Shown here piece after piece: positions 17,040 to 26,255 of a stretch of 26,383 nt of DNA. The position numbers and the translations under genes were made by a program. Numbering within the stretch: position 1 is the stretch's first letter; every line of letters begins with the position of its first letter. The stretch is from a virus: positions 1-26,383 of the IMG/VR virus record IMGVR_UViG_3300032224_001105; one strand, given 5' to 3'. The notes beneath the pieces were generated by a model. The model was not told the origin of the DNA, made no database searches, and was given only the letters and a program-made list of their open reading frames with translations.

Positions 17040-18312
17040 TTTGATTAATCAACTGGCTACTACAGTTCAACCAAAATATGTAAAGAATTATGATGAATAT
17101 AAAGAGGGTGATTTCATTCAATACTCTGGTCAACTTTGGGATGAAAATGAAATGCGAGCCGCACTTGATACACTTTTGAATGGAAAGTGGATTACATCAG
17201 GTGAAAAAGTTGCACAGTTTCAAATGAAGTTCAGTAAGAAGTTCAATGTGAAAAATGCACACATGGTTAACTCTGGTAGTTCTGCCAACTTGGTGATGAT
17301 TACTGCATTGAAGCACTACATGAAGTGGAAAGATGGCGATGAAATTATTGTTTCACCTGTTGGATTTCCCACAACTATCGCACCGATTGAACAGAATGGT
17401 TTGAAATCAGTATTCATTGACATTGAATTGGATACTTTGAATTTTGACCTAACCAAGATTGAAGAAAAGATTACACCACGAACCAAAGGTATTTTCGTAT
17501 CACCTGTTCTTGGTAATCCTCCTGACATGGATGTATTGCGTAACATTTGTACCAAACATGGCATTCTACTGATTGGTGATAACTGTGATTCATTAGGTTC
17601 CAACTATGGTGGTAAGATGTTGACTGACTACTACTATTGCTGGTCCACATCGTTCTATCCTGCACATCATATCTCTACAGGAGAAGGTGGAATGGTTTGT
17701 ACTGATGATGATGGTCTGATTGCTATAATGCGTTCTGTATCTTGGTGGGGTCGTGATTGTTATTGTGTCGGCTCTAACAATCTTTTGGAATGTGGCACCT
17801 GTGGTAATCGTTTCGATGAATGGTTGAACAACTATAATGGTATTGTTGACCACAAGTATATTTTTTCTACAATGGGTTATAACTTGAAACCACTAGACCT
17901 GCAAGGCGCTATTGGTATTGAACAGTTAAAGAAATTTGAATTCATCGATGAGAAGCGCCGTGATTACAAAAATAAGGTGCAGAAATTTATTGAAGATAAC
18001 ATTAAAGAAGTAAGAGTTATTAACTCCTTAGACAAAGGTGACCCATCTTGGTTTGGTGTGCCAATCTATTGTGAATCACAACAAGTAAAAGAAAAATTGG
18101 TTGCACACTTTGAAGCTAATAAAGTACAAACACGTAACTATTTTAGTGGTAACATCCTACTGCATCCTGGTTATGAACACTTAGATGACTTTAGAAAGTA
18201 TCCTAACTCTAATCTGGCATTGAGTAATGTATTCTTTGTTGGTTGTTCTCCTCTGTGGAACGAAAAGATTCTGGCTTATATTGAGAAAGTGTGTAAAAAA
18301 TGGAACGATTAA
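17026..18312 (+). CDS. RfbH/E1-type 4-keto-6-deoxyhexose 3-dehydrase
   Basis: The 428-residue protein is a DegT-fold PMP enzyme in which the usual lysine is replaced by histidine: SFYPAHHISTGEGG has H214 at that place, the mark of the C-3 dehydrase E1/RfbH. The iron-sulfur ligands also fit: C187, then C245 exactly 57 residues later, then C247, and C256 (C259 nearby), in a CYCVGSNNLLECGTCG loop; in E1 the spacing is C-x57-C-x-C-x7-C. The enzyme removes the C-3 hydroxyl with a reductase partner, leading to 3,6-dideoxyhexoses such as abequose, paratose or ascarylose. No E3-type reductase is seen, so the host may provide electrons. AAAGGA at 17011-17016 supports the start. Confidence 0.93.
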   Translation: MNTNDLINQLATTVQPKYVKNYDEYKEGDFIQYSGQLWDENEMRAALDTLLNGKWITSGEKVAQFQMKFSKKFNVKNAHMVNSGSSANLVMITALKHYMKWKDGDEIIVSPVGFPTTIAPIEQNGLKSVFIDIELDTLNFDLTKIEEKITPRTKGIFVSPVLGNPPDMDVLRNICTKHGILLIGDNCDSLGSNYGGKMLTDYYYCWSTSFYPAHHISTGEGGMVCTDDDGLIAIMRSVSWWGRDCYCVGSNNLLECGTCGNRFDEWLNNYNGIVDHKYIFSTMGYNLKPLDLQGAIGIEQLKKFEFIDEKRRDYKNKVQKFIEDNIKEVRVINSLDKGDPSWFGVPIYCESQQVKEKLVAHFEANKVQTRNYFSGNILLHPGYEHLDDFRKYPNSNLALSNVFFVGCSPLWNEKILAYIEKVCKKWND

Positions 18313-19154
18313 TCAATGTATTTGGTGGTCGTGGTTTTGTTGGTAAAAAGTACTGCGAACTAACCCCAGATATCTTGTGGGTTAATTCAAGGGATGATTA
18401 TGTTATAAAATCAAACAACACACATCCACTTGATATTGTATATTTCATATCCACAATTGATAATTACAATGTACATACAAACCCATACATAGACATAGAT
18501 ACCAATCTGACAACCATGATAAAGGTTTTGGAGTCTTGTAAAGGTAAGAATGTCTGTTTCAATTTTATCAGTTCTTGGTTCGTTTATGGTGATGTAGAGT
18601 TGCCTGCGAAAGAAGAAGCACATTGCAGTCCTAAAGGATTCTATTCAATCACCAAACGTACCGCAGAACAACTTCTAATTTCCTATTGTGAGACTTTTGG
18701 TATCAGATATAGGATTCTGCGTTTGGGTAATGTCTTGGGTGCTTCTGACAGTAAGGTTTCCAAAAAGAAAAACGCACTCCAGTACATGATTAATGAGATT
18801 GTAGAAGGTCGTGATGTTAGTTTGTATGATGGTGGTATGATTTATCGAGACTATATTCATGTCGAGGATGTCGTAAAAGCTATTAATCTGGTACTCGCAA
18901 ATGGCGAATTTGATACCACATACAATATTGCAAACGGCGTTCCCGTTTACATTAGAGATGTTATGGAATATACAATTAAGAAAACTGGTTCTCAGTCTAA
19001 GTTAATTGATATTCCGACCGTAGATTTTCATAAGATTGTACAGACAAAAAATATGGTTCTGGATGTATCTAAATTGAGGTCTTTGGGTTACGTAGAACAA
19101 TACGATATTTACGAAATTATAGACTCTTTACTTGTCGGTAAAAAAGTTATATAA
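18300..19154 (+). CDS. NAD-dependent epimerase/reductase (extended SDR), last gene of the island
   Basis: This 284-residue SDR has GGRGFVG (9-15), SSWFVYG (91-97) and Y115/K119 (YSITK), followed by YRDYIHVEDV. It follows the RfbH-type dehydrase with a 13-base overlap, the position where a CDP-3,6-dideoxyhexose 4-reductase or 2-epimerase (abequose, paratose or tyvelose type) would be expected. Length fits such reductases. An alternative is a general nucleotide-sugar epimerase. The stop codon lies inside a late promoter, so the end of the island and the start of the late module are joined at this point. Confidence 0.87.
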   Translation: MERLINVFGGRGFVGKKYCELTPDILWVNSRDDYVIKSNNTHPLDIVYFISTIDNYNVHTNPYIDIDTNLTTMIKVLESCKGKNVCFNFISSWFVYGDVELPAKEEAHCSPKGFYSITKRTAEQLLISYCETFGIRYRILRLGNVLGASDSKVSKKKNALQYMINEIVEGRDVSLYDGGMIYRDYIHVEDVVKAINLVLANGEFDTTYNIANGVPVYIRDVMEYTIKKTGSQSKLIDIPTVDFHKIVQTKNMVLDVSKLRSLGYVEQYDIYEIIDSLLVGKKVI

Positions 19155-19157
19155 ATA
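19150..19157 (+). promoter_or_regulatory. Late promoter TATAAATA at start of late module
   Basis: A perfect T4-type late promoter element, TATAAATA, overlaps the stop codon of the SDR gene. In T4 this element covers roughly -13 to -6, which would put the RNA start near 19163, about 42 bases before the next ATG. The following genes look like virion or head-internal proteins, as expected for late transcription. Confidence 0.8.
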
Positions 19158-19195
19158 ACTCCAGGCAACCAAAGTGTGTTGCATTTCTATGGAGT
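19158..19195 (+). promoter_or_regulatory. Leader hairpin that can cover the ribosome binding site
   Basis: Two nested stems can form: ACTCC (19158-19162) with GGAGT (19191-19195), and GCAAC (19165-19169) with GTTGC (19178-19182). The outer stem pairs the Shine-Dalgarno GGAG that lies 10 bases before ATG 19205. Its 5' arm is just upstream of the predicted late RNA start, so it exists only in RNA read through from the glycan island. T4 genes e, soc and the I-TevI gene use this arrangement to block early translation. Confidence 0.6.
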
Positions 19196-19204
19196 AAACT
19201 TTCA

Positions 19205-20395
19205 ATGTTATCATTTAAAACCTTCTTAAAGGAAGAGGCCGAGGGTGGCGAACTCAAGCATATTCACCATGCTGAGGACCGCCCTCTAATGCATGGCCAT
19301 GCTGGATTTGAACACGCCCACGAAGCTCTGATGAAGGCTCATGCACACATGACTTCAGGTGCGAAAAGTAGTAATCTTACGATGAAATATGATGGTTCTC
19401 CATCAATCGTTTTCGGTCATCACCCTAAAAATGGTAAGTTTTTCGTTGCTACCAAATCTGCCTTTAATAAGAATCCAAAGATTAATCACACCGAAAAAGA
19501 TATTGACAAGAACCACGGACACGCTCCTGGTTTAGCCGCATCTCTGAAACACGCACTCAAACACCTACCAAAAGTAACACCAAAACACGGTGTCTACCAA
19601 GGTGATTTGATGCATCATGCAGACACTAAACACCTACACGAAGGCGTTCTCGTAGAAGCCAAAGGTAGTAAAGTCTCTTTTACACCAAATACTATCACTT
19701 ATACCGCCCACGGCAAAGAAGCTGATAAGATTAAAAAATCTAAGATTGGTGTGGTAGTACATCACAAATATAGTGATGATATGAAACACGCTTCTCCTCA
19801 TGTTGACCATGAAAACTTTAAAGAACATCCAGATGTTCATATTCATGGTGCGGAACATGATACAAGCAAAGTGAAACATTCACCCGAGAACGAAAAGAAG
19901 TTTCAATCTCATATGGCAGCTGCCAAAGAAATCCATGACACACATGGTCACAAAATGTATGATGCGGTTCACCCAAAACATAGTGGTGAAACTGGCCACC
20001 TGTCAACCTACATAAACAAGACAGTTAGACACGATGAAGTTCCTTCCGTTAAGGGTTTCAAAGAACATCTAAAAGATGTACACGAAAAACAAGCATCAAA
20101 AGTTAAAACTGAAAGGGCGAAAGCTGAGAAGACCGGCGAAGGCGCAAAACAAATTGCCCACGTTGAAAAGAATAAATCACATTATGGAAACTTATTTGGA
20201 ATGCATCATCATTTACACCAAGCTAAAAATGCTTTAGTTAGTTCCTTAGAAACACATGAGGGACACTACCAACATCATATTGAAGGTAAGAAATCAAAAC
20301 CAGAAGGTTTTGTTGTACACCACGCAAACGAACCAACTAAATTAGTCAATCGTGCAGAATTTGCTAAACAAAATCTGTTAAAAGTACGTAAATGA
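19205..20395 (+). CDS. His-rich nucleotidyltransferase/ligase-fold protein with capsid-targeting-like N-terminus
   Basis: The 396-residue protein contains elements of the ATP-dependent ligase / capping-enzyme fold: KYDGSP (61-66), with K61 as the likely AMP-linked lysine (motif I KxDG), GVYQGDLMH (129-137), and near the C-terminus PEGFVVHH (366-373) and KLVNR (379-383), fitting motifs IV and V. It is very histidine-rich (about 54 by hand count). The N-terminus MLSFKTFLKEE resembles the T4 internal-protein targeting peptide with an L-x-E cleavage site at LKE. It is the first gene after the late promoter and overlaps the next gene by 4 bases. It may seal or cap nucleic acid, possibly from inside the virion; substrate unknown. 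I recall related proteins labelled DUF6267, which I could not verify. Confidence 0.82.
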   Translation: MLSFKTFLKEEAEGGELKHIHHAEDRPLMHGHAGFEHAHEALMKAHAHMTSGAKSSNLTMKYDGSPSIVFGHHPKNGKFFVATKSAFNKNPKINHTEKDIDKNHGHAPGLAASLKHALKHLPKVTPKHGVYQGDLMHHADTKHLHEGVLVEAKGSKVSFTPNTITYTAHGKEADKIKKSKIGVVVHHKYSDDMKHASPHVDHENFKEHPDVHIHGAEHDTSKVKHSPENEKKFQSHMAAAKEIHDTHGHKMYDAVHPKHSGETGHLSTYINKTVRHDEVPSVKGFKEHLKDVHEKQASKVKTERAKAEKTGEGAKQIAHVEKNKSHYGNLFGMHHHLHQAKNALVSSLETHEGHYQHHIEGKKSKPEGFVVHHANEPTKLVNRAEFAKQNLLKVRK

Positions 20396-22284
20396 AGTCA
20401 TTTTTAGATTTAGTAAAAGAACAGACCTCAAGTGAGAAACACCATGTTTTCACTTTTGGTAGGATGAATCCGCCTACCACAGGCCATCTGAAGCTGATTG
20501 ATAAGGTAAAAGAAGTTGCAAAAAAACATAATGCAACTCATTCTGTTGTAACATCACATTCTCAGGATGCGAAAAAGAATCCATTGTCAGCCTCAGAGAA
20601 AATAAAACATCTTAGTAGATATTCTCCTGGTACGCATTTTGAAGCTTCATCTAAAGAACATCCAACATTTCTACACCATGCGGAAAAATTACACAAACAA
20701 GGTGTAACACACTTACACATGGTGGTTGGTTCTGACCGTGTGCATGAAATGAAAGATAAATTGCACAAGTATAATGGTACACATAAAGGTGCATTATACA
20801 ATTTCAAAAAGATTACAGTACATTCCGCAGGTCACCGTGACCCTGATGCGGAGGGTACATCTGGTATGTCTGGTACCAAAATGCGTGAACACGCTAAGAA
20901 TAAGAATCATGCTGAGTTCCGTAAAGGTGTTCCTGCTCACGTATCTGATGCCCACGTAAAAGAATTAATGCACGATACTCGTAAGGGTATGGGACTGCAT
21001 GAGTCTGTAGACCGTGGATTATTTAAAGCCATATTCATTACTGGTGGTCCAGGTTCTGGTAAAGATGTTATCATACGTGAAGCAATTCCAGATGCTAGAA
21101 CTACAGAAATTAATTTAACACAAGCATATGCCTATCTGGCAGATAAACAAAAGTTGTCGGAGAAAACAGATAACTATCGTTTGGAAGCCATTCGCAATCG
21201 TGGTCCATTGGTTATTAATGGACCGGCAGATTCTTCTGATGAGATTTCTTATGTAAAAGAAGAACTAGAAGAACTTGGTTATTCTACTGTTATGATATTT
21301 GTTAATACAACAAACGAAGTCAGTCAGGAAAGAAATACAAAATTGTCCAGAATGATGGTTGAATCAATCCGTTTTGATAAATGGAAAAAATCACAGGACA
21401 ACAAACAATACTACTTGGATATGTTTGAGTCTCTAATTGAATTCAATAACAATTCAACATATGAGTGTTTAGAAGAAGATATTACTGACACCTATCAAAA
21501 AATAAATACCTTTATCGATGATGTAACCTTCAAAGAAAATGCACATTCTTGGTTGGAAAGTCATGGTAAGTTAAGTTTGTTAATTAATAAATTCTTTAAG
21601 GATGAAAATTATGTTCCAGAAACTTCTAAGTATATTCAAAAAATCAGAGAAAAGCGAGAGCCAAAACTCCACAAAGGTGGATCAGGTCGAGCAGAATCTC
21701 CCTCCGACATCCCAGCCGATAATCGTGCAGGAGACCCCAACTCAGGAAACATCAAGTGGGACGCCCCTAAACGTAGAGGTGACTACATCTTCAGAACCTA
21801 CAGCGAGTCCGAGCAACCAAAAGTCCAAACCAGGCCAGACCCGAAAGAAAGCAACTTCTCCAAGGACAAAGAAAAAGTAAAGCTTAAGAAGTTTGGTGAT
21901 AAGACATTAAGTGCTAACCGAACAGTTAAAGCGGATGGATTAAGCTCAGAGTGGAGTCTCCGTACAACAGGTACAGGTTTGACAGGTGGTGCAGGTCTAG
22001 GTAATCAGACATATAGTGAAGAAGAAGAATATAGTAATGCGAACCCAGCAACTACAGCAATGCCTTCTGGTGGTTCTTCTAATCCTTTAAGTAGTGAATA
22101 TACTAGTAAAAAGGATTTCCGAAAGTTTAGAAAAGTTAAAGAATCTTGGATGGATCCAGGTGACAATGAAATGGGTGTAGGTGGAACACTTGGTGGTTCT
22201 ACAAAGAAAGAACCCATGCTCTCATATAAAGATCCTGGTCGAAAAGTCATCACGTATTTTAAAAAGAAAAAGGCAAATAAATGA
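20392..22284 (+). CDS. Nucleotidylyltransferase-kinase fusion with long disordered tail
   Basis: The 630-residue protein has three parts. Residues 18-170 form a HxGH-type nucleotidylyltransferase: FGRMNPPTTGHLKL (TTGH 29-32) and GMSGTKMREHA (158-168), the second signature, as in NMN adenylyltransferase or cytidylyltransferases. Residues 213-400 form a P-loop kinase-like domain beginning FITGGPGSGKD (215-225). Residues 405-630 are low-complexity, with charged and glycine/serine-rich stretches. The N-terminus MKSFLDLVKEQ resembles the capsid-targeting peptides of this module. A pairing of these two activities suggests NAD or nucleotide metabolism, as in NadR-like proteins, but the substrate is not certain. 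Codon use turns C-ending at 21661-21860, where another frame is open. Confidence 0.85.
   Translation: MKSFLDLVKEQTSSEKHHVFTFGRMNPPTTGHLKLIDKVKEVAKKHNATHSVVTSHSQDAKKNPLSASEKIKHLSRYSPGTHFEASSKEHPTFLHHAEKLHKQGVTHLHMVVGSDRVHEMKDKLHKYNGTHKGALYNFKKITVHSAGHRDPDAEGTSGMSGTKMREHAKNKNHAEFRKGVPAHVSDAHVKELMHDTRKGMGLHESVDRGLFKAIFITGGPGSGKDVIIREAIPDARTTEINLTQAYAYLADKQKLSEKTDNYRLEAIRNRGPLVINGPADSSDEISYVKEELEELGYSTVMIFVNTTNEVSQERNTKLSRMMVESIRFDKWKKSQDNKQYYLDMFESLIEFNNNSTYECLEEDITDTYQKINTFIDDVTFKENAHSWLESHGKLSLLINKFFKDENYVPETSKYIQKIREKREPKLHKGGSGRAESPSDIPADNRAGDPNSGNIKWDAPKRRGDYIFRTYSESEQPKVQTRPDPKESNFSKDKEKVKLKKFGDKTLSANRTVKADGLSSEWSLRTTGTGLTGGAGLGNQTYSEEEEYSNANPATTAMPSGGSSNPLSSEYTSKKDFRKFRKVKESWMDPGDNEMGVGGTLGGSTKKEPMLSYKDPGRKVITYFKKKKANK
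21501..21508 (+). promoter_or_regulatory. Possible internal late promoter AATAAATA
   Basis: AATAAATA lies inside the fusion gene, about 100 bases before the ATG of the nested frame at 21611. It matches a relaxed NATAAATA late element. It could serve the nested frame or the genes downstream, or be chance in AT-rich code. Confidence 0.25.
21611..21880 (+). CDS. Possible overprinted small gene nested in the fusion gene (+1 frame)
   Basis: An 89-residue frame lies wholly within the fusion gene, shifted by one base. It has a well spaced ribosome site, AAGGA at 21598-21602, eight bases before its ATG. The product begins MFQKLLSIFKK, an amphipathic start of the kind that docks on membranes, continues as a Ser/Thr/Pro-rich linker and ends in a basic tail (TSPRTKKK). 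The host frame here uses mostly C-ending codons, unlike all neighbouring genes; that puts C at the middle codon position of the nested frame, giving its S, T and P. This can mean selection on the nested frame, or merely that C-ending codons create such a frame. An in-frame ATG at 21602 is too close to the site. Confidence 0.35.
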   Translation: MFQKLLSIFKKSEKSESQNSTKVDQVEQNLPPTSQPIIVQETPTQETSSGTPLNVEVTTSSEPTASPSNQKSKPGQTRKKATSPRTKKK

Positions 22285-22496
22285 TATCTTTCAAAGACTT
22301 TATTACCGAAAAGGTAGATAAACAAGATTCTATAACAATGGACATTCCTCTTTTAATACGTGTATTAGAATTGGCCAGAGAGGATGTTAAGAGTGATATG
22401 GAATTACATCGTATTACCGAAAGATTAATTAGTATTCGTAAAAAAGGTATGCTGACAATGGATCATTATAATTTCATTGCTGGTTCAAGAAAATAA
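22281..22496 (+). CDS. Small conserved phage protein with capsid-targeting-like N-terminus
   Basis: This 71-residue protein starts MISFKDFITEK, close to the T4 internal-protein peptide (MKTYQEFIxEA type), with an I-x-E cleavage site at ITE. The rest is a helical segment DIPLLIRVLELAREDVKSD followed by LHRITERLISIRKKG and LTMDHYNFI, which I recall as a conserved small phage domain. It overlaps the fusion gene by 4 bases. If the peptide is cut, about 60 residues remain, which would be a small internal head protein. Function unknown. Confidence 0.82.
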   Translation: MISFKDFITEKVDKQDSITMDIPLLIRVLELAREDVKSDMELHRITERLISIRKKGMLTMDHYNFIAGSRK

Positions 22497-24550: not shown

Positions 24551-24558
24551 TATAAATA
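24551..24558 (+). promoter_or_regulatory. Late promoter TATAAATA before the virion protein gene
   Basis: A perfect T4-type late element 36 bases before ATG 24595. By T4 spacing the RNA would begin near 24564, exactly at the start of a stem-loop. It serves a single-gene unit that ends in a strong terminator. Confidence 0.82.
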
Positions 24559-24564
24559 GAACCA

Positions 24565-24577
24565 TAACCAAAGGTTA
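24565..24577 (+). promoter_or_regulatory. 5'-terminal stem-loop of the late mRNA
   Basis: TAACC (24565-24569), loop AAA, GGTTA (24573-24577) forms a five-pair hairpin starting one base after the predicted RNA start. Hairpins at the very 5' end are known to protect bacterial mRNAs from decay. The ribosome site AGGAG (24581-24585) stays free just downstream. Confidence 0.55.
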
Positions 24578-24594
24578 ACAAGGAGATTAAAAAA

Positions 24595-25245
24595 ATGTCA
24601 CTATGGTCAAATAACGATAATGCCAATAGTAAACCACACTTTCCGGAACTACGTCAGGTATCTCCAGTAAGTTCGTTGACTACAGCAAATTCCACAGCGG
24701 CTGGAGCAAACTCTATCATTTTCGCACAAATCGGCGGTGCAAATTCAATTCCATCAACAATTTCTGTTGGTGATTTTGTTTACACTTCAGGTGGAAGCTT
24801 ATCTAGATTTCCTGACGGAAGTTTTATGGATGACAATGATATTACTTTCTTCAGGTCTAATAATACAATTCGTACTATCGATAGTGCTAATGCCAAAATT
24901 ACATTAGCAAACGTAGTTATTACTACAATTGCAAGTAGTTCTACAGTATGGTTTGCAAACAACATAGTTAAGTCTGGTGTTCCAGCAAATACTTACTCAG
25001 ATACTATTATGGTAACTGTTGGACGTATGGCAAACACACAAGGCACAACATACGGTGGTGGTTCAAACGTTTCAAACACACAACTTGGTGCTGTTAACCA
25101 AGGTTGGAATTTGATTAAGTTTAAGACAAACAACGATGGTACAAAACGTTTCCTCAAAGAAACACTTGTTGTTATTGCTAATACCGTTGCATACAACGTT
25201 TCATCTGCCAATACAAGCTCTAACGCTGTATTTGGTGGTGTATAA
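24595..25245 (+). CDS. Probable abundant virion structural protein
   Basis: The 216-residue protein is beta-rich, with many N, T, S and G residues, few lysines and no cysteine, as in phage tail or capsid-decoration proteins. It starts MSLWSNNDNANSKPHFPEL; I recall similar LWxNxD...SKP openings in virion proteins of marine T4-like phages. A later GWNLIKFKTNNDGTKRFLKE followed by TLVVIAN looks like a conserved C-terminal strand pair of that group. It has the best expression signals in the window: a perfect late promoter, a 5' hairpin, AGGAG 9 bases before the ATG and a terminator right after the stop. This points to high late expression. Its place in the particle is unknown. Confidence 0.82.
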   Translation: MSLWSNNDNANSKPHFPELRQVSPVSSLTTANSTAAGANSIIFAQIGGANSIPSTISVGDFVYTSGGSLSRFPDGSFMDDNDITFFRSNNTIRTIDSANAKITLANVVITTIASSSTVWFANNIVKSGVPANTYSDTIMVTVGRMANTQGTTYGGGSNVSNTQLGAVNQGWNLIKFKTNNDGTKRFLKETLVVIANTVAYNVSSANTSSNAVFGGV

Positions 25246-25252
25246 TTAAAGT

Positions 25253-25278
25253 GGGGTACCTAACGGTACCCCTTTTAT
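25253..25278 (+). terminator. Rho-independent terminator
   Basis: A perfect eight-pair stem, GGGGTACC (25253-25260) and GGTACCCC (25265-25272), with loop TAAC, is followed by TTTTAT. It lies 8 bases after the virion protein stop and is the clearest terminator in the window. The next ATG follows only 9 bases after the stem. Confidence 0.9.
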
Positions 25279-25281
25279 ACT

Positions 25282-25668
25282 ATGTTTGAAAATTTGAATG
25301 ACGATAATTTTTTGATGTTCGCAATGAAATGCTACGCATCACCTAATTGTTTAATGTCCGAATTTGACGGAGATATGAAGCGTACCAAGTATCTAAAGAG
25401 ATTATTCCGCAGATACAAGGTCACTAAGAACCTCAAAGAAAGACTGATTCTCAACCATATCATTTTATTGAACAATGTTTTTGGTCCAGAAGTAACATCG
25501 AGAATTTTGTTCTATAAAATCGATGAACGTGATTATGATATATTGAAAACATTTTTGATGTACTTGAATATAATGCCGGATGTGGTAGTTGGTATAAATG
25601 GTAAGAATATATACTCATCAGATATACCATTAGAAACAAATATTGCAGAAATATTAACAAAGATATGA
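25282..25668 (+). CDS. Conserved T4-like phage protein of unknown function
   Basis: The 128-residue protein is helical, with MFENLNDDNFLMFAMKCY at the start, then FDGDMKRTKYLKRLFRRY and LKERLILNHIILLNNVFG, and a C-terminal DILKTFLMYLNIMP. I recall this family in many myoviruses, including enterobacterial ones, without a known role. No convincing Shine-Dalgarno sequence precedes the ATG, since the terminator stem ends only 9 bases before it; the start is still favoured because the N-terminal phrase is conserved in the proteins I recall. The stop overlaps the next start (ATGA). Confidence 0.84.
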   Translation: MFENLNDDNFLMFAMKCYASPNCLMSEFDGDMKRTKYLKRLFRRYKVTKNLKERLILNHIILLNNVFGPEVTSRILFYKIDERDYDILKTFLMYLNIMPDVVVGINGKNIYSSDIPLETNIAEILTKI

Positions 25669-26255
25669 AGTCATTCAAACAATACCTAAATGAAAATTGC
25701 TGTTGTGTAACGGCATTGGAAAAAGGTTTAAAAAAATTAAATAAGCACGACTACGATTCAATTAATGAATTGATGATGGATATTTCCAAAAAAGGTAATA
25801 CTACTGGCAAAGCTTTGCATGACGATTTTGTGGCCAAACATGGAAAAACTCCAGATGAGTGGATTAAACAAAATTTAAAAGAAGATTTACGCAAGTGGTT
25901 TAAGCAAAAATGGGTTCGCATGGACACCAAAGGAAATATTAAAGGCCATTGCGCCAGAGATCCAGGTGAAGGCAAACCAAAATGTTTACCACAATCTAGG
26001 GCACAAGCTCTAGGTAAAGAAGGTCGTGCTGCAGCAGCTCGAAGAAAACGCAGAGAAGATCCTAATCCAGAACGCCGTGGTGCACCAATTAACGTTAGAA
26101 CGGAAAGTGCGGCCGCAGCAATCGCTGCAGCTACAGCAATAGCAAAGAAAAAATCTGGTAATTATGATTCTGAAGGATTTAGAAAAACTCCATACAAAAA
26201 TCCAAATCACCCTTTGAGAAAAAGTAATTCGCAGAGAGAGAAAGAACAAAAATGA
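25665..26255 (+). CDS. Basic small-domain protein with capsid-targeting-like N-terminus
   Basis: This 196-residue protein begins MKSFKQYLNENCCC, another T4 internal-protein-like peptide, with an L-x-E site (LNE) before an unusual run of three cysteines (12-14). A compact domain follows at about 76-145: KWVRMDTKGNIKGHC, then GKPKCLPQSRAQAL and KRREDPNPERRGAPINV, with C96 and C107. I recall this KWVR...GKPKCLP domain in many phage proteins. An alanine-rich helix (148-160) and a basic tail end the protein. It overlaps the upstream stop by 4 bases and the next start by 4 bases. It may be a DNA-associated internal head protein; that is inference. Confidence 0.8.
   Translation: MKSFKQYLNENCCCVTALEKGLKKLNKHDYDSINELMMDISKKGNTTGKALHDDFVAKHGKTPDEWIKQNLKEDLRKWFKQKWVRMDTKGNIKGHCARDPGEGKPKCLPQSRAQALGKEGRAAAARRKRREDPNPERRGAPINVRTESAAAAIAAATAIAKKKSGNYDSEGFRKTPYKNPNHPLRKSNSQREKEQK

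Follow-up and report, generated by a model that had tools for sequence, protein, structure and literature searches.

Which RNA structure matters in the leader of a phage late gene, and in which transcript? This question is raised by positions 19150 to 19205 of the viral record IMGVR_UViG_3300032224_001105, a 26,383-base IMG/VR record, probably a fragment, whose full length we refer to as the window. This stretch begins with a T4-type late promoter element (the late box) and leads into a gene encoding a DUF6267 protein. A preliminary description had proposed that the late promoter is placed so that the Shine-Dalgarno sequence of this gene is hidden in RNA reading through from upstream genes and exposed in RNA started at the late promoter, as for the T4 genes e, soc and I-TevI. 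The comparison of relatives reported here points to another structure, a hairpin of 18 nucleotides (nt) located between the two arms of the helix considered at that time. This hairpin was absent from the preliminary description, yet it is the conserved part of the leader. With moderate confidence, we propose that 19150-19205 is a late leader with a 5' hairpin, which probably binds a protein, and that this leader precedes an operon for a predicted head-packaged protein.

A conserved hairpin follows the late box

The late box TATAAATA has two exact copies in the window, each located between + strand genes, and this copy number is not above chance (shuffle mean of 2.87). Among relatives, 79 of 80 loci found by protein similarity had a box of the form [TG]ATAAATA upstream of the gene. 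The perfect late element that had been reported to end at 19157 was recovered at 19150-19157, and T4 numbering gave the same predicted late start near 19163 as in the preliminary description. For this numbering, we took the T at -13 to be the first base of the box, which hence spans -13 to -6. A T at -13 is given for T4 late boxes in the available part of PMC2988020.

The hairpin, GCAAC-CAAAGUGU-GUUGC, consists of a stem of 5 base pairs (bp) and an 8-nt loop with the consensus CAWAGUGU (CA-N-AG-Y-GT across variants). Its occurrence was determined in three sets of loci, namely the best 80 of 166 loci encoding a close relative of the DUF6267 protein, the best 80 of 121 loci retrieved with a divergent query, and loci found by DNA pattern, among the matches listed. 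The hairpin was present in all 80 loci of the first set, 79 of which had the box and hairpin immediately upstream of the gene. In the 80th locus (L015), they were found one gene further up, another gene intervening. The divergent-query set contained the box and the standard loop in 64 of the 80 loci and a variant in the other 16, so that the hairpin was again present in 80 of 80. The variant, TAGT-CACAGYGT-ACTA, occupies the same place and combines a replaced stem with a nearly unchanged loop and a degenerate box. Seven loci (L257, L277, L282, L283, L289, L294, and L297) contain TACTAAATA instead of the late box and TAGT-CACAGYGT-ACTA instead of the hairpin. The lineage with TACTAAATA uses either a different type of promoter or a divergent form of the late promoter.

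Among new viral loci found by DNA pattern, a five-pair stem was detected in 117 of 119 matches (117 loci, among the matches listed). Scanning bacterial and archaeal genomes for the box plus loop, with a pattern slightly wider at the last base, returned 118 matches, none with five pairs and seven with four pairs. A viral scan requiring no C at the second stem position returned 62 places. Twenty-four of these were five-paired, all with GTAAC/GTTAC and all before an open reading frame (ORF), and most of the remaining places look like chance. Altogether, the fetched viral loci contained 307 places in 305 loci, corresponding to 219 distinct 300-nt contexts. One locus (L112:264-1420) carries two box-plus-hairpin leaders 1.1 kb apart, before genes whose products start with MLTFLSFLGE and MRTFKSLLKE, and two leaders with the same spacing are present in L142.

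The element did not correspond to a catalogued RNA family, since Rfam gave no match at the gathering score in the window and none up to an E value of 5 in 19000-19300. A DNA search of the phage collection with 19148-19215 returned two chance-level matches (E value of 6), such a search having little power for an 18-nt motif. No description of this element was found in the literature searched, as judged on titles and the beginnings of abstracts.

Evidence for selection on the stem and the loop

Covariation was analyzed in an alignment of 104 distinct 28-nt rows preselected for at least four of the five pairs. Two-sided changes were detected at all five stem pairs (27 cells versus 2.4 in shuffles), a count reached by none of 500 shuffles, and controls in which the structure was slid gave 0 to 8 cells. 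Identity to the window in 79 loci was 0.97 for the loop, 0.95 and 0.96 for the stem arms, and 0.58 and 0.67 for the flanks. Identity at fourfold sites of the gene was 0.49 (80 loci). The compensatory stem changes and the conservation beyond the neutral rate indicate that the hairpin is a cis-acting RNA element. As judged from these alignments, selection acts on both the shape of the stem and the letters of the loop. The stem, the loop, their place, and their link to the gene are established by this comparison of sequences.

Position of the hairpin in late RNA and in genomes

We cut 123 distinct leaders from the 80 protein-found loci and from DNA-pattern loci (among the matches listed). Assuming T4 spacing, 116 of the 123 leaders have the first base of the stem at +3 to +5. 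The stem pair probability in the predicted late RNA had a median of 0.93 and exceeded 0.5 in 107 leaders. The hairpin probably acts in late RNA, because its distance to the late box is fixed.

The motif CAWAGTGTRYTRC had one match per record in seven long records. In three long records, the late-box stretches carrying the hairpin were 1 of 11, 1 of 7, and 1 of 5. A generic late leader was rejected as an identity for the element because the hairpin was found at a single late-box stretch in each of these three records.

Other late boxes were observed in the same material. In L203:1-262 and L220:1-232, a different strong hairpin is located right after TATAAATA, the 62-nt folds reaching -17.5 and -14.1 kcal/mol, respectively. 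This other late leader of L203 precedes a gene whose product starts with MTSISLFPQWEQL and resembles a small heat-shock protein. The stretch 24551-24600 holds the second late box of the window and, after it, the small hairpin TAACC-AAA-GGTTA and the Shine-Dalgarno sequence AAGGAG. For the gene start associated with this second box at 24551 (MSLWSN or MSLWGN), the window alone matched among the fetched loci.

The outer helix over the Shine-Dalgarno sequence

The preliminary description had paired ACTCC (19158-19162) with GGAGT (19191-19195). This pairing exists, and the helix in fact comprises 6 bp between ACTCCA and TGGAGT, over the Shine-Dalgarno sequence of the gene at 19205 (Table 1). When both transcripts were folded, the helix was part of the minimum-energy structure of the RNAs containing the 5' arm and was absent from the RNA starting at 19163. 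Equally good pairing with the 3' arm of the window was obtained for 43 of 20,000 random 7-mers of the window, in a test made after the site had been picked. The overall fold of the arm-containing RNAs was not unusually stable (z of -0.6 to -1.1), and the extra predicted cost of opening the Shine-Dalgarno sequence in read-through RNA, relative to late RNA, was 1.5 kcal/mol. The upstream epimerase-type gene ends with a stop codon (19152-19154) that falls within the late box, and the list of terminator-like sites of the window contains none on the + strand between 14000 and the late box.

The difference in opening cost between read-through and late RNA had a median of about 0 over the 123 leaders and reached at least 1.5 kcal/mol in 17 of them. 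In L003, which encodes the closest relative of the protein (93%), four outer pairs are left, one of them G-U. Pairing was further evaluated by shuffling the 3' arms among 118 leaders, five leaders with arms longer than 11 nt being omitted; these statistics treat leaders without correction for ancestry. Mean outer pairing over all 118 leaders was slightly above that of shuffles (7 of 1000 reached the observed value), and it was above all 1000 shuffles for the 50 leaders with pyrimidine-rich arms. Pairing did not exceed the shuffled level (862 of 1000 shuffles reached it) in the 68 leaders with fewer than three pyrimidines in the first five bases of the 5' arm, while the inner hairpin was kept. 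The excess in mean pairing was lost if one sequence was retained per 5-nt arm (245 of 1000 shuffles for 25 pyrimidine-rich arms and 711 of 1000 for all 43 arms).

Strong pairings were in modest excess. A pairing score of at least 10 was obtained for 20 leaders versus 15.9 expected (reached by 234 of 2000 shuffles), and a score of at least 12 for 12 of the 118 leaders versus 5.7 expected (5 of 2000). Four leaders (the window, L017, L133, and L136) had a score of at least 15 versus 1.5 expected (92 of 2000, and 0 of 2000 when shuffling was restricted to arms with the same first two letters). The fold of L136 contains an outer helix of 8 bp, and the outer helices of L017 and L133 are of other sequence. 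The distance to the upstream gene did not separate paired from unpaired leaders (median of 56 versus 62.5 nt; 103 of 118 leaders with an upstream ORF in reach).

The outer-helix pairing first noted in the leader is therefore real, but it looks weak and lineage-specific. Because strong pairs are a minority and the median cost is about 0, the outer helix is maybe active in some lineages and is not a conserved design. It may have been selected in a few lineages and could operate in some, that of the window included. The shuffling of 3' arms and the opening energies led us to reject the outer helix as the conserved element, and hiding of the Shine-Dalgarno sequence did not hold up as the main function of the leader. 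For the more specific proposal that read-through RNA is blocked, the geometry of the helix is compatible with T4 spacing, read-through RNA would retain the arm, and the upstream gene overlaps the box, but the predicted difference in opening cost is small. The analogy with T4 e, soc, and I-TevI would extend to the promoter, the geometry, and the read-through context, but not to conservation in relatives.

Genes located behind the leader

The DUF6267 gene led by the hairpin encodes a protein whose first residues resemble the capsid-targeting sequence of T4. In T4, this signal comprises 10 residues, with positions 4 and 7 involved in targeting and positions 8 and 10 (L/I-x-E) in cleavage, according to the available text of PMC9026906. 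Residues M1, F4, L8, and E10 are invariant in 17 proteins, and F7 is conserved in at least 90%. A capsid-targeting-like start was found on the gene behind the hairpin in 208 of the 219 distinct contexts with a loose pattern and in 201 with a strict pattern.

Among distinct strict-start ORFs in the loci then fetched, the box and hairpin preceded 107 of 110 DUF6267 genes and 14 of 55 other genes. One of these 55 had the box alone and 40 had neither box nor hairpin. Several of the 40 are located directly behind a DUF6267 gene, as shown by their upstream letters, which are the end of that gene. The leader therefore seems to single out the opening gene of a unit of head-targeting-like proteins, this operon order being putative.

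Two additional genes of the window encode products with capsid-targeting-like starts (Table 1), and a weaker start of this kind is located at 20392. No late box or hairpin was found in the 80 bases upstream of the gene at 25665. The structure model of the DUF6267 protein was of low confidence (mean predicted local distance difference test score of 56). The protein had no sequence match in the PDB and, with this low-confidence model, no fold match at an E value of 0.001 or below. The string MKYDGSPS (19382-19405) is invariant in 17 relatives. It may correspond to the KxDG motif (motif I) of RNA ligases and ATP-dependent ligases, and the KYDGS string within it is similar to a nucleotidyltransferase motif.

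The nearest named phages in the phage collection, identified with the UvsX protein of the window, were C48C1 (66.5%) and a Stenotrophomonas phage (63.3%). The window therefore belongs to a lineage without a close named member in that collection. At 25253-25272, between genes ending at 25245 and starting at 25282, TTTT follows a perfect stem of 8 bp on the + strand. This site, which is listed on both strands, is likely a terminator.

Table 1. Features of the leader and of neighboring genes in the window.
Feature	Position	Strand	Basis or remark
Final member of the sugar-nucleotide genes upstream (NAD-dependent epimerase/dehydratase family)	18300..19154	+	ORF list; Pfam PF01370, E value 6.4e-31
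T4-type late promoter element TATAAATA	19150..19157	+	Sequence; box kept in relatives
5' arm ACTCCA of the outer helix	19158..19163	+	Five of six bases precede the predicted late start
Predicted late RNA start (+1)	19163	+	Inferred from T4 box-to-start spacing (T at -13 in PMC2988020)
Conserved RNA hairpin, stem GCAAC/GTTGC (19165-19169 with 19178-19182), loop CAAAGTGT (19170-19177)	19165..19182	+	Starts at +3
3' arm TGGAGT of the outer helix, including the Shine-Dalgarno sequence GGAG (19191-19194)	19190..19195	+	Sequence, fold
DUF6267 protein (396 residues) led by the leader, start MLSFKTFLKE like the T4 capsid-targeting sequence	19205..20395	+	PF19782, E value 2.3e-95
Downstream gene, capsid-targeting-like product start MISFKDFITE	22281..22496	+	N-terminus
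Downstream gene, capsid-targeting-like product start MKSFKQYLNE	25665..26255	+	N-terminus

Proposed role of the hairpin and alternative explanations

According to our proposal, a gp55-type late promoter would fire at about 19163, and the late RNA would begin 2 nt before the 18-nt hairpin, which would thus be located at the 5' end of the RNA. In late RNA, the hairpin would be recognized by a trans-acting protein, probably encoded by the phage, and the bound protein would control the stability or translation of the late mRNA. A protein-read site is proposed because a near-fixed loop on a covarying stem looks like one. The stem would itself also shield the nearby 5' end. In the window and in a minority of relatives, the additional outer helix may damp translation of read-through RNA. 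The start site, the binding of a protein, the effect on expression, and head packaging are the steps of this mechanism that we infer.

Several observations weigh against this proposal. No clear TATAAATA is present in the 16 variant loci, and the stem is located further down (+6 to +18) in 7 of the 123 leaders. One of the five covariation measures, that of further pair types, gave 8 versus 6.7 and was reached by 84 of 500 shuffles. Related rows inflate the covariation, and the proportion of paired positions (99.2%) is biased by the preselection of rows with four or more of the five pairs. Better evidence than this percentage is provided by the two-sided changes and by the protein-led sets. Some variants break one pair (ACAAC/GTTGC, GTGAC/GTCCC, and GTAAC/GATAC). 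Eleven of the 219 contexts have no capsid-targeting-like start. Three of these (L136, L186, and L190) have a normal hairpin, and the other eight are four-pair matches from the pattern scan that look like chance. In nine named DUF6267 phage records (chosen from 462 matching, one of them a single-cell genome), no such hairpin was found before the gene, and matches to the late box plus loop anywhere in the record were obtained in 0 of 9. The motif is therefore not needed for a DUF6267 gene as such. Finally, head packaging is predicted from the N-terminal motif alone.

The main rival explanation is that the hairpin is a pure 5'-end stabilizer of late mRNA, which would slow 5'-end-dependent decay without a specific partner. 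Stems close to the 5' end protect mRNA, and the location of the stem at +3 to +5 in nearly all leaders is consistent with this function. We nevertheless consider it rather unlikely, since a near-fixed loop would be needless for mere stabilization and other late-box stretches in three related records are devoid of the hairpin. A function centered on the outer helix, which would hide the Shine-Dalgarno sequence in read-through RNA and be lost upon late starts, the inner hairpin acting only as a helper, could account for the perfect helix of the window, the strong pairings of L017, L133, and L136, and the overlap of the upstream gene with the box. The small predicted gain, the 68 leaders that keep the inner hairpin without pairing of the arms, the dependence of the mean excess on repeated arm sequences, and the lack of sorting by upstream-gene distance make this function improbable.

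The inverted repeat GCAAC-N8-GTTGC could also be a DNA element bound by a dimeric protein beside the late promoter, as symmetric changes in the half-sites preserve a DNA palindrome and the distance to the promoter is fixed. This possibility is highly improbable in view of the 8-nt spacer, which is asymmetric yet conserved, and of the 16 loci that combine a different stem with nearly the same loop. In addition, GCGAC/GTTGC, GCAGC/GTTGC, and GTAAC/GTTGC (4 of 104 rows) keep the RNA pair and break the repeat, although another 4 of the 104 rows break the RNA pair too. It is equally doubtful that the hairpin functions weakly as an intrinsic terminator or acts close to the promoter as a signal for pausing or antitermination. 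The stretch 19165-19182 is on the terminator-like list and is promoter-proximal in a multi-gene unit, but the stem is only 5 bp long and the U run is not conserved (five T within the 8 nt following the stem in 5 of 123 leaders, and TTT in 27). An intrinsic terminator has a G+C-rich stem followed by a U run, and the hairpin was rejected as a member of that class on account of its 5-bp stem and the lack of a conserved U run.

A bolder form of the protein-binding proposal, which we regard as speculative and rather unlikely, is that the hairpin, at the extreme 5' end of the late mRNA, is a gene-class tag read by a phage protein, tying the synthesis of head-packaged proteins to head assembly. Either translation would be controlled or the proteins would be made locally at the prohead, a link that is not described for T4 in the available parts of the literature.

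Relation to known systems and implications

The late box located at the 5' arm is reminiscent of late-start escape in T4 (genes e, soc, and I-TevI, and also segB and the Aeh1 gene mobE). In the T4 genes, read-through RNA contains both arms and late RNA does not, according to the accessible portions of PMC3014915 and PMC2988022. In contrast, the outer helix is weak in the window and is not kept by most relatives, and the conserved hairpin leaves the Shine-Dalgarno sequence uncovered and stays in the predicted late RNA. An 18-base hairpin upstream from the start codon is also a feature of the gene 43 translational operator of T4 and RB69. The T4 operator comprises 18 bases, and the loop is -UAAC- in both phages (PMC3014915, available text). 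The leader differs from this operator by its loop, CAWAGUGU, and by its location before late genes with capsid-targeting-like starts. Identity with the gene 43 operator was rejected on the basis of the loop and location of the leader, gene 43 itself not having been inspected in these phages. The first 10 residues of the encoded proteins fit the rule for the T4 internal proteins IPI-III and Alt, as given in the available text of PMC9026906, but the protein body is DUF6267 or other, and packaging is predicted from sequence.

In many uncultured T4-like phages (219 distinct contexts, of which eight are probably due to chance), a structured RNA with an almost invariant sequence stands at the beginning of a late unit whose leading genes carry head-targeting-like signals. 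Descriptions of T4 late genes mostly place their control at the promoter. If the hairpin binds a protein, late control would have an additional level, connected with the packaging of cargo, and in metagenomes the leader would point to genes whose products are packaged and possibly injected. The late box, usually followed after 7-9 nt by the hairpin with the loop CAWAGTGT, already provides an effective means of locating such genes.

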